Shown here one piece after another: positions 28,272 through 39,135 of a stretch of DNA of 41,147 nucleotides. The DNA is from Acidobacteria bacterium RIFCSPLOWO2_12_FULL_66_21 (GTDB lineage: Bacteria > Acidobacteriota > Vicinamibacteria > Vicinamibacterales > 2-12-FULL-66-21). Positions within the stretch are counted from its first letter, which is position 1. The number at the start of each line of letters is the position of its first letter. Position numbers and translations under genes: made by a program. Under the pieces are notes generated by a model that was given only the letters and a program-made list of their open reading frames with translations, was not told the origin of the DNA and made no database searches. The stretch lies in the NCBI GenBank assembly GCA_001767455.1, contig MELC01000012.1, positions 2,356 to 43,502 of the forward strand, given 5' to 3'.

Positions 28272-28480
28272 GGGAGCGGAGCGGGGCGTAGGGGCCCCCG
28301 CGAGCGACCGAGCCGGGGTCCGGGGCGGAGCCCCGGTCAAGGTGGGAGCGGAGCGGGGCGTAGGGGTCCCCGCGAGCGACCGAGCCGGCGTCCGGGGCGG
28401 AGCCCCGGTCAAGGTGGGAGCGGCGCGGGGCGTAGGGGTCCCCGCAAGCGACGAGCTTGGCGGGGTGCAGGGGGCCCCGC
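28272..28480. repeat. 72-bp tandem repeat, about 2.9 copies, hairpin-rich
   Basis: Units begin at 28272, 28344 and 28416, each starting GGGAGCGGmGCGGGGCGTAG. Each full unit has two palindromes: GCGGGG...CCCCGC around the CGTAG loop, and CCGGGGCGGAGCCCCGG with a GGA loop. The third unit diverges and ends in GGCGGGG...CCCCGCC next to a TATAAT. The period is 24 codons exactly, so both strands stay open as proline/arginine-rich frames, which are not genes. The GCGGAGC core also occurs at 5519-5562. Confidence 0.85.
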
Positions 28481-28483
28481 CTA

Positions 28484-28489
28484 TATAAT
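28484..28489 (+). promoter_or_regulatory. -10 box of the LolA-like gene
   Basis: Perfect TATAAT directly after the last repeat hairpin. Transcription would begin near 28497, giving a leader of about 22 bases that contains GAGGAG. The -35 region falls inside the terminal palindrome of the repeat. Confidence 0.6.
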
Positions 28490-31779: not shown

Positions 31780-31833
31780 TAGCCAGCAGGCGGCAGGCGG
31801 TGAGTCCCGCCGCCAACTTGGGCGTATGTAATT

Positions 31834-31928
31834 GGCGAGTTGGTGAATTCGTGATGTGGTGAATTCACAAGGCGGGGACGAACTCACCAATTCACCAATT
31901 CACGCATTCACGGATTCACGAATTCGAG
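31834..31928. repeat. octamer repeat block (NTTCACC family), inverted arrangement
   Basis: From 31881 to 31928 the sequence is six 8-base units: AACTCACC, AATTCACC, AATTCACG, CATTCACG, GATTCACG, AATTCGAG. From 31834 to 31865 four units of the reverse orientation occur (GGCGAGTT, GGTGAATT, CGTGATGT, GGTGAATT). The halves could pair into a hairpin around GGCGGGGACG between speA and the convergent M28 peptidase gene. A second block of the family is at 34868-34905. Confidence 0.75.
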
Positions 31929-34957: not shown

Positions 34958-36118
34958 GTGACTTCCACGGTCTTCGTCCTTCCGCCGCTGCTCCAGTCGG
35001 CACCCGTGCCGATTGCCGCCCTGGATCTGTCCGGCCAGGTCCTCGACGTGAACCGCGCGCTGCTCGTGGCCTCGGGCTATTCGGCCGAGGATCTCAAGGG
35101 ACGGCTGTTCGCCGCCTTCCTGGATCCGGGAGACGAGCGGGCGGCGCGGGCGGCGTTCGGCGAGCTGGCGCACGGGCTTCGCGACCACTACCGGGCCGAG
35201 CGCCGCTATCGAACCGGCAGCGGCGATGTCCGCGAGGTGGACTTGAGCGTCGCCCTCGTGCGCGGCCCGTCCGGCGATCCGGAGCTGTGCCTCGCTGCGC
35301 TCCAGGACGTCACGGAACACAGGCGCGCGCTTGCCGAGGCGGCGCAGCGCGCCGCGCAACTCGAGGCGGCCGAGGCGGAGCGCGAGCGGTTGCTCCAGCA
35401 GACGCAACGCGCGCACCGCGAGGTCGAAGCCAGCAGCCGGTTGAAGGACGAATTCCTCGCCACGCTGTCGCACGAGCTGCGCACGCCGCTGAATGCGATC
35501 CTCGGGTGGGCGCGGATCCTGAGGGGCCGCCCGTTCGACGTCTCCACGCTGCACGCGCTCGACGTCATCGAGCGCAACGCCGCGGCGCAGGCGCGGCTCA
35601 TCGACGATCTGCTCGAAGTGTCGCGGATCATCACAGGCAAGATCCGGCTGCAGATCGAGGCGATCGACCTCCGCGCGATCGCCGCCGGGTCGATCGAGAC
35701 CATCAAGCCGGCCGCCGACAGCAAGAGCGTCAGCCTCCAGGCGGAGATCCCCCCGGACCTGCCGCGCATTACAGGCGATTCCCAGCGGCTGCAACAGGTG
35801 CTCTGGAACCTGCTCTCGAACGCCGTCAAGTTCACGGACGCCGGCGGCAAGGTCTCGCTGGAGCTGCTGCACGATCAGCGCGCCGTGCAGATCGTGGTGA
35901 CGGACACCGGGCAGGGCATCTCGCCGCAGATTCTGCCTTACGTGTTCGATCGGTTCACGCAAGGGGACTCGTCCACGACACGCGCCCACACCGGCCTTGG
36001 CCTCGGCCTCGCCATCGTCCGCCACCTCGTCGAGCTGCACGGCGGCGTCGTCTCCGCGGAAAGCGGCGGTGAGGGGAAAGGCTCGACATTCCGCGTCTGG
36101 CTCCCCACGCCGCCCTAG
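34958..36118 (+). CDS. PAS-domain sensor histidine kinase
   Basis: 386 residues from GTG 34958. PAS domain about 13-125 (SAPVPIAALDLSGQVLDVNRALLVASGYSAEDLKGR, ending LAALQDVTEHR), then a coiled-coil linker (about 122-160, Ala/Glu/Arg-rich). HisKA follows with DEFLATLSHELRTPLNAILGW (phospho-His172), then HATPase_c with VLWNLLSNAVKFTD, DTGQGISPQILPYVFDRFTQGD and GLGLGLAIVRHLVELHGG. No membrane segment, so it senses a cytoplasmic cue. Its partner regulator is not adjacent. A TACACT -10 (34939-34944) ends 13 bases before the GTG; the longer open frame begins inside the divergent gene and the repeat block, so it was rejected. Confidence 0.93.
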   Translation: MTSTVFVLPPLLQSAPVPIAALDLSGQVLDVNRALLVASGYSAEDLKGRLFAAFLDPGDERAARAAFGELAHGLRDHYRAERRYRTGSGDVREVDLSVALVRGPSGDPELCLAALQDVTEHRRALAEAAQRAAQLEAAEAERERLLQQTQRAHREVEASSRLKDEFLATLSHELRTPLNAILGWARILRGRPFDVSTLHALDVIERNAAAQARLIDDLLEVSRIITGKIRLQIEAIDLRAIAAGSIETIKPAADSKSVSLQAEIPPDLPRITGDSQRLQQVLWNLLSNAVKFTDAGGKVSLELLHDQRAVQIVVTDTGQGISPQILPYVFDRFTQGDSSTTRAHTGLGLGLAIVRHLVELHGGVVSAESGGEGKGSTFRVWLPTPP

Positions 36119-36122
36119 ACGA

Positions 36123-36290
36123 CAAATTCCAAACTTCAAACTCCAAAACTCAAAGGCACTCCAAATTCCAAACTCCAAACTTTGGCGTTTGGCGTGCCTT
36201 TGGAGTTTGGAATTTGGCGTTTGGAGTTTTGGACGTGTCTTTGGCGTTTGGCGTGCCTTTGGAGTTTGGAATCTGGCGTTTGGAGTTGAC
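36123..36290. repeat. heptamer repeat block (TTTGG/CCAAA family)
   Basis: The left part (36123-36178) is built from 7-base units ending TCCA or TCAA (AATTCCA, AACTTCA, AACTCCA). The right part (36179-36290) is the opposite orientation, in units ending TTTGG (CGTTTGG, AGTTTGG, AATTTGG) interrupted by 11-mers CGTGCCTTTGG. The right part is a tandem of 59 bp (36182 and 36241). The halves can pair into a long imperfect hairpin. It lies between the histidine kinase and PQQ genes, both on the plus strand. Related blocks at 38111-38356. Confidence 0.85.
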
Positions 36291-36312
36291 GAGGTCCACC
36301 CCGATGTATGCT
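36286..36312 (+). promoter_or_regulatory. promoter of the PQQ-propeller gene at the repeat edge
   Basis: TTGACG (36286-36291) and TATGCT (36307-36312) are separated by 15 bases. TATGCT ends seven bases before ATG 36320, so transcript and translation starts coincide. The -35 box is the last unit of the heptamer repeat block. Confidence 0.5.
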
Positions 36313-36319
36313 ACCGCGC

Positions 36320-37663
36320 ATGTCACCAGCCATACGCGTCGTCGCGGTCGTCCTGCTCGCCGCGTGCCTTCATCTGCCGCGCGCGGGCGCGGCGCCCGAC
36401 GACAACTGGGCGCAGTGGCGCGGGCCATCGGGGCTCGGCATATCGGCGGCCGACAACTACGCGACCGAGTGGGCGCCTGACAGGAACATCGCCTGGAAGG
36501 TGGCCGTGCCGGGCCGCGGCCTTTCGTCACCCGTCGTCTGGGGTCATCATCTCTTCATCACTACGTCTATCGAAGGCGACCTGATTCCCGGGCACACCGC
36601 GCCCGATCACCTGGGCTTCGACCTCAAACCAGGGTACCTGCATCCGGACAGCACGGGCGTCGATCACAAGAACGCACTGAAGGTGCTGGCGTACGACACG
36701 TCGAACGGCCGGCTGTTGTGGGAACACACCGCCTACGACGGTCCCATGTACGACAACCGCCACAAGAAGAACACCTACGCGTCGCCGACGACCGTGACCG
36801 ACGGCCGGCTCGTGTACGCATTCTTCGAGGCCGCGGGCCTCTATGCGTACGACTTCAAAGGCAAGCTCGCGTGGAAGAAGTCACTTGGCAACATCGCGAA
36901 GGCGGGCCTTGGCCCGGGCACGTCGCCGATTCTGTACGACAACCTGCTCATCCTGCAGATCGACCAGGAGATGGGCGCGAACTCCGCGATTGTCGCGCTC
37001 GACAAGACAAACGGCAACGAGGTGTGGCGCGCCGCGCGGACCACGAGGCGGAGCTGGGCGACACCGATTGTGGTGAATGCCGGAAACCGCGCGGAGCTCG
37101 TAGCGTCGGGCGCCGAGGTCGTGATCGCATACGACCCGAAGACGGGCACCGAACTCTGGCGGACGAAAGGGGTCCAGAGCCATCCGATTCCGAGTCCGGT
37201 CGCCGGCGGCGGCCTCGTGTTCCTGACCGCCGGCAGCCAGGCCAAGCGCGCGATGGCCATTCGTCCCGGGGGATCGGGCGATCTGACCGATACCCCGGCG
37301 ATCGCCTGGCGATACGACAAGGGCACGGCCTACGTGCCTTCGCCGATCGTGTACGGTCAATACCTGTATCTGATGTCCGATGCCGGGATCATCACGTGCC
37401 TGGACGCGTCAACGGGCCAGGTGCAGTACGAGGGTGGACGGCCGCCGGCACCCGCGACGTTCACGGCCTCGCTCGTGGCGTACGGTGACCGTGTTCTTCA
37501 GACGAGCGAGGACGGCGACACATTCGCCATCAAGGCGGGTCCGAAGCACGAGATCCTCCGCACGAACTCGGTTGGCGAGCCGGTGTATGCCTCGCTGGCG
37601 CTCGCGGGCGGCACCATCTACATCCGGGGCGCGCAGCACCTGTTTGCGATCAGGGCGAAGTAA
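36320..37663 (+). CDS. PQQ-like beta-propeller repeat protein (BamB-like fold)
   Basis: 447 residues from ATG 36320; an in-frame ATG at 36308 falls inside the -10 box. Signal peptide MSPAIRVVAVVLLAACLHLPRAGAAP. The propeller has repeated W-motifs: WAQWRGPSGLGIS at the start, VLAYDTSNGRLLWEH, LYAYDFKGKLAWKKSLG, IVALDKTNGNEVWRAA, VIAYDPKTGTELWRT and ITCLDASTGQVQYEG. The opening W-x-Q-W-R-G-P is typical of periplasmic or exported PQQ-like propellers in Planctomycetes and Acidobacteria. No enzyme residues for PQQ dehydrogenation are evident, so a scaffold role is likely. The stop overlaps the next ATG (TAATG). Confidence 0.92.
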   Translation: MSPAIRVVAVVLLAACLHLPRAGAAPDDNWAQWRGPSGLGISAADNYATEWAPDRNIAWKVAVPGRGLSSPVVWGHHLFITTSIEGDLIPGHTAPDHLGFDLKPGYLHPDSTGVDHKNALKVLAYDTSNGRLLWEHTAYDGPMYDNRHKKNTYASPTTVTDGRLVYAFFEAAGLYAYDFKGKLAWKKSLGNIAKAGLGPGTSPILYDNLLILQIDQEMGANSAIVALDKTNGNEVWRAARTTRRSWATPIVVNAGNRAELVASGAEVVIAYDPKTGTELWRTKGVQSHPIPSPVAGGGLVFLTAGSQAKRAMAIRPGGSGDLTDTPAIAWRYDKGTAYVPSPIVYGQYLYLMSDAGIITCLDASTGQVQYEGGRPPAPATFTASLVAYGDRVLQTSEDGDTFAIKAGPKHEILRTNSVGEPVYASLALAGGTIYIRGAQHLFAIRAK

Positions 37664-38100
37664 TGAGCCTGAGATTCCAGTCGGTGGCGGCGTTCGCCCT
37701 GATGGTGGCCGGACTCGTCTGGCTGCTGATCCGCCACGAGGTGTTTGCCAGGAACTCCGTCGCGCTGGCCATCCAGGTGCTGGCGATCCTGCTCATGATC
37801 GCGGCGCGCCTCGCGTTCGGCATGCGCAGCTTTCATGCCGCGGCCAACCCGACGGCCGACGGCCTCGTCACCTCGGGCCCGTACCGGTGGATTCGGCATC
37901 CGATTTACGCGGCGGTCCTGTACTTCACCTGGGCCACCGCGCTCGACCATCGGACCTGGGAGGCGATTGCCGCGGCCGTGCTCGTCACGATTGGAGCCGC
38001 CGCGCGAATGTACGCGGAGGAACGGCTGCTGGTCGGGATGTACCCGGAGTACGTCGATTACAGCGCGCGGACGGCGCGGGTCATTCCGTTCGTTCTCTAA
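37663..38100 (+). CDS. isoprenylcysteine carboxyl methyltransferase-like membrane protein
   Basis: 145 residues with about four hydrophobic spans (SVAAFALMVAGLVWLLI, SVALAIQVLAILLMIAARLAF, IYAAVLYFTWATAL, WEAIAAAVLVTIGAAARM). The SAM-binding signature of the ICMT/PEMT group is present: TSGPYRWIRHPIYAAV, then EERLLVGMYPEYVDYSARTARVIPF. It should methylate a lipid-like or small hydrophobic substrate at the membrane; bacterial members have various roles. Coupled to the PQQ-propeller gene by TAATG. Its last 20 bases are duplicated 134 bp downstream within a repeat block. Confidence 0.88.
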   Translation: MSLRFQSVAAFALMVAGLVWLLIRHEVFARNSVALAIQVLAILLMIAARLAFGMRSFHAAANPTADGLVTSGPYRWIRHPIYAAVLYFTWATALDHRTWEAIAAAVLVTIGAAARMYAEERLLVGMYPEYVDYSARTARVIPFVL

Positions 38101-38356
38101 AGACGTGTAAACGACAATTCCAAATTTCCAACTCCAAATTTCATAGGCACTCCAAACTCCAAACTCCTTTGGTCGTTGGCGTTTGGAGTGCGTTTGGAGT
38201 TTGCCTTAGAACGGTCATCCCGTTCGTTCTCTAAAAGCGGGAATTCCAAATTTCCAACTCCAAATTCCAAAGGCACTCCAAACTTCAAACTCCAAACTCG
38301 TTTGGTCGTTGGCGTTTGACGTGCCTTTGGAGTTTGCCTTTTGGAATTTGGAATTG
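38081..38356. repeat. 134-bp tandem duplication carrying heptamer repeats and a copied gene end
   Basis: Bases 38081-38100, the end of the methyltransferase gene with its TAA, recur at 38215-38234 with one change, followed in both cases by CCAAA-type heptamers and then TTTGG-type heptamers. The period is 134 bp: unit one 38081-38214, unit two 38215 to about 38348. Each unit holds a hairpin-forming heptamer block of the same family as 36123-36290. The duplicated coding end shows the block arose or grew by duplication including flanking gene sequence. Confidence 0.85.
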
Positions 38357-38357
38357 G

Positions 38358-38990
38358 TTAGGATGGCTCTCCGAGAAGGCAGATGAACTCGCCGAGGACC
38401 ATCGCCGTGGCGCCCCACACCTGGTGCCCGAGCAAGTCGAAATAGGGATACTCGATCGCGACGCCTTCGCGGATGTGGCCGCCCTGCCTGATCCGCGACG
38501 CGTCCCGGATGTCTTCCAGCGAGACCTCAAGAATCTCGTCGACTTCATGCGGAGCGGCGCGAAACGCCGGCCGCTCCTCCGTGATGCCGACGATCGGATG
38601 GAGCGTGAAGCCGCTGACGAGCACGTGCACGGGCGTCAGCTCTCCGAGCACTCGGACCGCGCGCGGATCGACGCCGATTTCCTCCGCCGCCTCGCGCAGC
38701 GCCGCGTCGACGAGCGTCTCACCGGGATCGGCGGCGCCTCCGGGCAGGCTGATCTGCCCCGCGTGCCGCGCGAGCCCCTGCGCGCGCACGGTCAGCGGCA
38801 CCGCGGGGCCGTGCGCAAGGGGGTAGATCAGCAGCAGCGCCGCCGCCAGCCGCGCGTCGGCAGGGAAGTGCCCGGCCCGCCAGCCCGGGCCGTGGGGCGT
38901 CGGCACGAACCGCATCTGCGCCTCGGGTCCCGGCAGCGTCCCCGCCAGGCGGACGCGGAGCAACGCTTCCACGGCGGCGAGATCCGGCAT
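38358..38990 (-). CDS. NUDIX hydrolase, CoA pyrophosphatase type
   Basis: 210 residues from ATG 38990. Nudix box GGAADPGETLVDAALREAAEEIG (GX5EX7REUXEEXGU) at about residues 83-105. The preceding element LTVRAQGLARHAGQISLPGG is the UPF0035 signature of CoA/acyl-CoA diphosphatases (NudL, PCD1). It would split CoA-type dinucleotides into phosphopantetheine and 3',5'-ADP. CATACT on the minus strand (39003-38998) gives a -10 seven bases before the ATG; the longer frame to 39101 runs into the tandem repeats and was rejected. The last codons abut the heptamer repeats. A degraded fragment of a related gene lies at 40050-40092. Confidence 0.92.
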   Translation of the reverse strand: MPDLAAVEALLRVRLAGTLPGPEAQMRFVPTPHGPGWRAGHFPADARLAAALLLIYPLAHGPAVPLTVRAQGLARHAGQISLPGGAADPGETLVDAALREAAEEIGVDPRAVRVLGELTPVHVLVSGFTLHPIVGITEERPAFRAAPHEVDEILEVSLEDIRDASRIRQGGHIREGVAIEYPYFDLLGHQVWGATAMVLGEFICLLGEPS

Positions 38991-39003: not shown

Positions 39004-39135
39004 ACCCACGGAAGGGCACGGCAACACGAACCACGGAAGGACACGGAGATCGGACCACGGAAGAACACCGAATCACATACCACGGAAGGACACGGAATCA
39101 CACGGAGGTTTCAACCACGGAAGGACATGGAAGCA
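39004..39135. repeat. interspersed repeat array, ACCACGGAAGGACACGGA family
   Basis: Units related to ACCACGGAAGGACACGGA start near 39004, 39030, 39054, 39079 and 39114, at spacings of about 24-26 and finally 35 bases. Spacers are short and A/C-rich (AATCAC-type). The array lies upstream of the NUDIX gene. It is not a CRISPR: units are only about 18 bases, imperfect, and the spacers are 6-17 bases. Bases 39136-39349 after it hold nothing I can identify. Confidence 0.8.

Follow-up and report, generated by a model that had tools for sequence, protein, structure and literature searches.

Inverted heptamer arrays between acidobacterial genes are probably ORF-less relatives of S23-type mobile hairpins

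What are the hairpin-forming blocks of seven-base repeats that lie between protein genes in an acidobacterium, and how did they come to be dispersed? The stretch analysed here, called the window, comprises 41,147 bp of the Acidobacteria bacterium RIFCSPLOWO2_12_FULL_66_21 genome (G000:C12:2356-43502; assembly of 6,475,179 bp in 91 contigs). In each of its three blocks, a left arm of CCAAANN units is followed by an inverted right arm of NNTTTGG units, with an occasional 11-mer, CCAAAGGCACT. Our analysis indicates that the blocks are probably copies, lacking an open reading frame (ORF), of a dispersed hairpin element related to mobile hairpins of the S23/intervening sequence (IVS) type. It likewise makes probable a wider class, in which two inverted arrays of short direct repeats (units of 7, sometimes 8-9 bp; typically 4-5 units, about 37 bp) enclose a loop with or without an S23 gene. 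The array/S23/array unit recurs in many genomes, and in one genus, where sister genomes have empty sites, it forms a discrete insertion; ORF-less hairpins of that genus share heptamers with S23 units.

The first-pass annotation of the window had described heptamer blocks in both orientations, complement first, that can fold on themselves and lie in both co-directional and convergent gaps. Word counts and refined ends bear out the arrangement. The three blocks contain 14 of the window's 21 CCAAA words and 19 of its 23 TTTGG words, mostly spaced by 7, 11 or 14 bp, and have the following limits after refinement:

36124..36287, no strand assigned: element 1, inverted CCAAANN arrays with CCAAAGGCACT 11-mers, 164 bp, in a co-directional gap 5 bp past the stop of a kinase gene.
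38116..38201, no strand assigned: element 2, a shorter copy of 86 bp, in a convergent gap.
38242..38355, no strand assigned: element 3, 114 bp, in a convergent gap, with the stop of a minus-strand gene 2 bp away.

In every block the CCAAA arm comes first and the TTTGG arm second, whichever strand is read. Because the hairpin is identical from either strand, the complement-first order is a fixed polarity of the element and not one relative to the genes. The predicted folding also held: as DNA, the blocks gave z values of -7.1, -5.5 and -8.0 (the first folded only to 36270), with none of 200 shuffles as good, and as RNA -6.7, -7.0 and -9.3. In both kinds of fold the window copies have the complementary ends, forming a long stem, by which an IVS of 23S rRNA is recognized.

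A genome-wide search, which the first-pass annotation had recommended, confirmed the dispersal of the blocks. The three-unit pattern CCAAANNCCAAANNCCAAA matches at 69+51 places in the genome and its reversed control at 0+1, so the blocks are not peculiar to this one locus. Around these matches 47 stretches were fetched, together with three 20-kb stretches chosen regardless of them. These and the window hold 54 blocks, from which 38 two-ended copies were curated, giving a family of at least 38 two-armed CCAAA copies in the 6.5-Mb genome. Among relatives, 14 of 59 have any three-unit match, with a maximum of 10+10 in the same family. In the relatives G002 and G016 (L197, L202), some CCAAA-type arrays appear reversed, with the TTTGG arm first, judging from the strand order of the matches.

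The arms of these copies have a sharp boundary, at which AA(C/T)T gives way to CCAAA, with an A in 77 of the 83 arm ends at position -4 and in 78 at position -3; outside it there is only a weak GTC beyond AA(C/T)T. Over 76 arms, the 11-mer sits at offset 25 in 29 and at another offset in 8, and 39 arms have no match to it. Mean pairwise arm identity is 0.78, and judged by their sequences the arms of CCAAA copies are alike by descent. A gapped comparison of arms of up to 45 bp gave a within-copy score of 26.4 vs 24.9, a small excess that surpasses all 300 shuffles. Covariation of the NN positions between arms, considered as a sign of selected RNA pairing, was rejected: compared position by position, the two arms of a copy show no greater likeness than arms taken from separate copies (0.791 vs 0.782, p=0.145). 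The first-pass annotation had argued from the variable N positions against slippage and for maintained core bases; the fixed ends and the preferred 11-mer position uphold that argument, whereas the case for maintained pairing is weak. The copies carry the terminal inverted repeats expected of a miniature inverted-repeat transposable element, and their flanking 3 bp read R-W-Y on the left in 23 and on the right in 24 of the 38. In some copies 18-bp subunits are tandemly repeated and unit number varies; slippage probably shapes arm length.

A connection to S23 genes is found within the family itself. Copy C24:175375-175973 has a loop about 430 bp longer that contains an ORF, whose product scores 56.9 bits against TIGR02436 'four helix bundle protein' (cut-off 24) and 37.2 bits against PF05635 '23S rRNA-intervening sequence protein' (cut-off 33.8) and has 2rld as its nearest solved chain (E 3e-11). 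There are four PF05635 matches in the genome, one below the curated cut-off, and all four adjoin heptamer arrays, each with a different heptamer: CTGGAAG, GATTGGC (a left array only, at a contig end), CCAAACT and GGCTCGT. In the fetched loci, arrays of these S23-partnered families number 74 for CCAAACT, 13 for GATTGGC, 12 for CTGGAAG and 9 for GGCTCGT, alongside families with no known S23 partner (GGCAGCT 14, TTGGGAG 4, CGATAGT 4 and 16 unassigned heptamers); the loci were picked for CCAAA, which inflates its share, and the S23 loci's own arrays are included. Heptamer arrays of any kind are frequent here: the three 20-kb stretches contain nine lag-7 arrays, none of CCAAA type, and together with the window 11, two of them being block 1, vs 0 in Markov resamples.

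The flanks of S23 genes in other genomes provide strong evidence for the association of arrays with S23. PF05635 occurs in 99 of 199 genomes of a phylum sample (our genome included) and in 0 of 14 control genomes. For 30 of these 99 genomes we took the best-scoring locus, sought arrays within 400 bp, and compared each left flank with the reverse complement of the right flank, using percentiles of between-locus pairs as threshold; loci truncated at contig edges were left out here (L219, L284, L287, L294) and in the second set below (L301, L311, L329). An array with a period of 7-9 bp was present at 26 of 30 loci (best lag: 7 at 21 loci, 8 at 6, 9 at 1 and another at 2). Flanks were inverted beyond the 95th percentile at 30 of 30 and beyond the 99th at 19 of 30. 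ParE toxin genes of the same phylum, serving as controls, had arrays at 2 of 27 and inverted flanks at 1 of 27 loci. Three S23 loci of our own genome were in the test; all three had lag-7 arrays and two passed for inversion, the third presumably being the contig-end locus. In genomes reached elsewhere through stretches with CCAAA arrays, 20 of 27 loci had arrays and 26 of 27 inverted flanks, against 4 of 27 with arrays in the far flanks. Named plasmids yielded 35 S23 records, mostly cyanobacterial, and 10 of the 12 fetched have inverted arrays (two of the 12 are near-identical stretches from one strain); in Nostoc edaphicum one such locus lies between ribonucleotide reductase genes, and in Picosynechococcus one separates cas10 from a Cmr3-family gene. 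No S23 phage record was found among named records. Arrays above the score limit were present in 66 of 120 flanks, with a median of 5.0 and a mode of 4 units per arm (26/66), and array length was 37-38 bp for both 7- and 8-mers.

A wider search for CCAAA arrays returned at least 115 stretches in many phyla; by eye, many are heptamer arrays without hairpins and some lie inside protein genes, and the count implies no frequency. At L095, L101, L107 and L114, in Parcubacteria and others, conserved protein genes that by eye are trmD-, priA-, rlu- and aminoacyl-tRNA-synthetase-like seem to contain in-frame arrays of CCAAA type.

That the array/S23/array unit inserts as a whole is seen in another genome. 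At locus L238 (G197), a unit of about 435 bp lies between pdhA and pdhB, the genes for pyruvate dehydrogenase E1 alpha and beta. Across the genus, 41 genomes were searched and 17 sister sites fetched; in the alignment, G242, G255 and G166 have clean empty sites at this position, and G225 has two heptamers, a remnant or precursor. G252 carries in the same gap an S23 unit with other heptamers (TIGR02436, 109.1 bits), and by eye G218, G190, G261, G271 and G254 have other small ORFs at the site. This gap is an insertion hot spot in the genus (g77, L250-L266), holding toxin-antitoxin-like modules by eye, two S23 units, or nothing. In G204, a racemase-family gene (PF01177) contains an in-frame ORF-less hairpin with the L238 heptamers, which adds a net 12-18 residues absent from 8 orthologues. 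Separate from this insert, a second dispersed palindromic repeat at L269:1730-1998 (G204:C25) matches many genomes of the genus.

In the window's genome, the CCAAA copies were placed relative to genes called with a dicodon caller trained on the fetched loci. The 38 copies comprise 18 convergent, 20 tandem and 0 divergent placements vs a background of 16, 66 and 15 gene pairs (convergent enrichment, p=4e-4), one of the tandem copies, L042, sitting inside a called gene. An initial count had put 20 of the 54 blocks in convergent and 29 in tandem context, leaving 1 unplaced and 4 'divergent'; the four are L042 and the one-sided or atypical L049, L050 and L053, which are outside the 38. Gene 3′ ends facing an element (n=56) lie at a median of 3.5 bp from it and 5′ ends at 19.5 bp, though some called starts overlap elements (down to -56 bp) and the L042 gene overlaps by -97 bp at its 3′ side. 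In convergent gaps, a median of 11 bp is left beside the element vs 72.5 bp in array-free gaps (p=0.056), and in tandem gaps the element is closer to the upstream stop in 14 of 20, which is not significant (p=0.115). Placement at 3′ ends is a property of the CCAAA copies and is not shown for heptamer arrays generally.

This placement raises the alternative that the host selects the hairpins at 3′ ends as bidirectional terminators, 3′ processing sites or mRNA-stabilizing sites, which would explain why copies lie behind stops and in convergent gaps and why they fold so well as RNA. Terminator function, suggested for testing in the first-pass annotation, found no support: between 36050 and 38450 there are 0 terminator-like sites (a GC hairpin with a T run) vs 2.2 in shuffles. 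Moreover, the NN positions do not covary between arms, arrays occupy only 1 of 15 convergent gaps in the window and the three 20-kb stretches, and hairpins of the same build lie inside the racemase gene and, with S23, between pdhA and pdhB in other genomes. We therefore consider host-selected 3′-end hairpins unlikely. A passive origin, in which 7-bp slippage and template switching at hairpins expand simple sequence with neither an element nor a protein, would account for the variable unit number and the tandem 18-bp subunits. The common ends and fixed 11-mer position of separate copies speak against it, as does the tie between inverted arrays and S23 (30/30 vs 1/27 controls), and the presence or absence of whole units, with empty sites, argues against expansion as sole cause; as the full explanation it is quite improbable.

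Two further proposals concern proteins other than S23. Dispersed extragenic palindromes could be repetitive extragenic palindromes (REPs) or resemble bacterial interspersed mosaic elements, moved by a RAYT (Y1) transposase, and the genome does have three Y1_Tnp matches. REPs differ, however, from arms of period 7 with free heptamer sequence. None of the three matches coincides with a block that was fetched: the match at C71:3993 shares its contig with the block at C71:15462, that at C86:119708 with those at C86:44574 and 169209, and that at C62:22302 is on a contig from which no block was fetched. The RAYT link was rejected; we give this reading hardly any credence. The arrays could instead be binding sites of a nucleoid protein of IHF/HU type, as proposed for Geobacter metallireducens, where paired arrays on opposite strands lie at variable distance (PMC2700814). 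The different heptamers at each S23 locus of one genome are ill-suited to a single sequence-specific factor, and the excerpted text of PMC2700814 gives no binding test, which leaves this explanation very unlikely.

Several observations weigh against reading the window's blocks as relatives of mobile S23-type hairpins. An S23 ORF is present in 1 of the 38 CCAAA copies and in none of the three in the window, and both the empty sites and the racemase insertion come from other genomes. Loops are short and unrelated between copies (best score 7 among 10 loops of at least 15 bp) and so give no sign that whole elements were recently copied and pasted. Identity of the flanking 3 bp, as in a target-site duplication, was found in 6 of 21 copies vs 1.9 expected in a first set, where it looked significant, in 6 of 32 vs 3.3 in a larger set (p=0.09, not significant), and in 7 of 38 after curation. 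A comparison of orthologous gaps of CCAAA copies in family-level relatives, made with L070, gave no syntenic pair among DNA matches. Of 62 genomes that carry a CCAAA array, 50 were searched and 48 of these have PF05635, but with S23 base rates as high as 99/199 and 157/198 genomes this is weak evidence. The flank test used best-scoring loci, and two of the 12 plasmid loci lack inverted arrays, one having direct arrays only and one none near the gene. Lastly, heptamer arrays taken over all families are not clearly excluded from divergent gaps. Among the fetched loci, 11 of the 43 gaps of this kind contain one; in the window with the three 20-kb stretches, arrays occur in 2 of 13 divergent gaps, 7 of 59 tandem gaps and 1 of 15 convergent gaps.

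If the blocks are nevertheless mobile hairpins of S23 type, a mechanism can be proposed. The arms would move and multiply as the ends of a selfish element, which may be tolerated where genes stay unbroken, hence behind stop codons. Its transcript may form a long hairpin open to cutting by host RNase III, by analogy with the IVSs of 23S rRNA. An S23 pentamer may bind the repeat array, each subunit taking up roughly one unit; this would account for a conserved period and unit number combined with free sequence. The strand-transfer enzyme probably acts in trans, as family scans of S23 reveal no catalytic domain; given the distant relationship of S23 to Avd, one candidate is a reverse transcriptase supplied in trans.

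The neighborhood of the blocks in the window includes the following features:

34958..36118, plus strand: sensor kinase gene (PAS/HisKA/HATPase), flanking element 1.
36308..37663, plus strand: gene for a PQQ-type beta-propeller protein, flanking gene.
37663..38100, plus strand: PEMT/ICMT-type methyltransferase gene, flanking gene.
38086..38101, plus strand: 16-bp string (end and stop of the methyltransferase gene) that recurs, by eye, at 38220-38235, an offset of 134 bp.
31830..31925, no strand assigned: octamer hairpin built in the same way, GGTGAATT-type then CACCAATT-type units (inversion by eye), in another convergent gap.

The repeated 16-bp string, noted by eye, makes elements 2 and 3 partly one local tandem duplication. 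The CACCAATT / AATTGGTG octamer family is dispersed in the genome (L034, L052, L054, L056, L058). Elsewhere in the window, a tandem repeat of about 25 bp, CCACGGAAGGACACGGA-type, lies at 39006-39102, close to minus-strand gene 38358-38990 on its 5′ side, with no inverted partner by eye, and a 72-bp tandem repeat (2.6 copies, 95% matches) at 28272-28456 lies just ahead of a called gene start at 28489.

The first-pass annotation knew of no named element with this structure, a statement that proved incomplete, as inverted intergenic heptamers have been published for Xanthomonas and Geobacter and heptamers for the Coxiella IVS. Inverted intergenic heptamers are thus already known, and an explanation through S23 may unify several kinds of them. 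In Geobacter metallireducens, paired octamer or heptamer 'global regulator binding sites' have 4-5 repeats per site on opposite strands at variable distance (PMC2700814, in excerpt); unlike the window's heptamers, they have other sequences and are read as possible IHF/HU sites. The TAACTGA repeats of Beggiatoaceae, cyanobacteria and Bacteroidetes are intergenic heptamers of patchy distribution, with horizontal transfer suspected but no mechanism given in the excerpted account (PMC4679880); they differ from ours in being mainly direct, with translational regulation proposed, and a term search of that text gave neither 'S23' nor 'four helix'. The GGGAATC / GGGGAYT intergenic heptamers of Xanthomonas and Nostoc have variable positions, form 70-75 inverted pairs per Xanthomonas genome, and lie in Xanthomonas on average 28 nt from the upstream ORF, rarely between divergent genes and mostly in four units (Rehm et al. 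2015, PMC4692102, in excerpt). Heterogeneous inverted intergenic heptamers near stops and rare in divergent gaps were found here for the CCAAA copies only. The G runs of those repeats form G-quadruplexes, and S23 is unmentioned in the excerpted text of PMC4692102; the window's blocks, in contrast, with their TTTGG core, contain no G-tracts of three by inspection (no G-quadruplex program was run).

No link between intergenic heptamers and S23 was found in the open-access literature, and two old puzzles meet here, intergenic heptamers with no cause and S23/IVP proteins with no function. If the flanks of S23 genes are repeat arrays, each explains the origin of the other. Together they would also make up a common, easily recognized group of small mobile hairpins, from which in-frame peptide insertions in host proteins could arise. 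Xanthomonas campestris has both abundant GGGAATC arrays (PMC4692102, in excerpt) and an S23 protein reported to be a homopentamer (PMC4990558, in excerpt; Lin et al., a title cited in PMC10053308). It is possible, though on balance doubtful, that the short-period repeats of many bacteria, among them Xanthomonas, Nostoc, Geobacter and this genome, form a single mobile class with the S23-bearing rRNA IVSs. Its members would be hairpins with arms built from a 7-9 bp unit of free sequence, which a pentameric protein of the S23/Avd family reads at one unit per subunit, and the rRNA IVSs would simply be copies that landed in an rRNA helix. The S23 protein is described as a homologue of Avd from diversity-generating retroelements (PMC10053308, in excerpt). 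The relationship is distant, the L238 protein scoring 31.4 bits against NF033474 (Avd), below the 80-bit cut-off; Avd works with a reverse transcriptase.

A close comparison is with the IVS of 23S rRNA. In Coxiella burnetii, the IVS is 428 nt long, with terminal inverted repeats forming a long stem and an S23-family ORF, beside which lie tandem heptamers of variable copy number; it is cut by RNase III, and its mobility was proposed in earlier work (PMC4990558 and citations therein, in excerpt). The CCAAA copies are like it in their terminal inverted repeats, long stem and heptamers and, in one copy, an S23 ORF. They are unlike it in lying between or in protein genes and in being mostly ORF-less, whereas the IVS sits in an rRNA helix; called protein genes, not a 23S rRNA helix, flank all 38 copies (no rRNA search was run). 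Because they are not in a 23S rRNA helix, the CCAAA copies 'work like' an IVS but are not an IVS.

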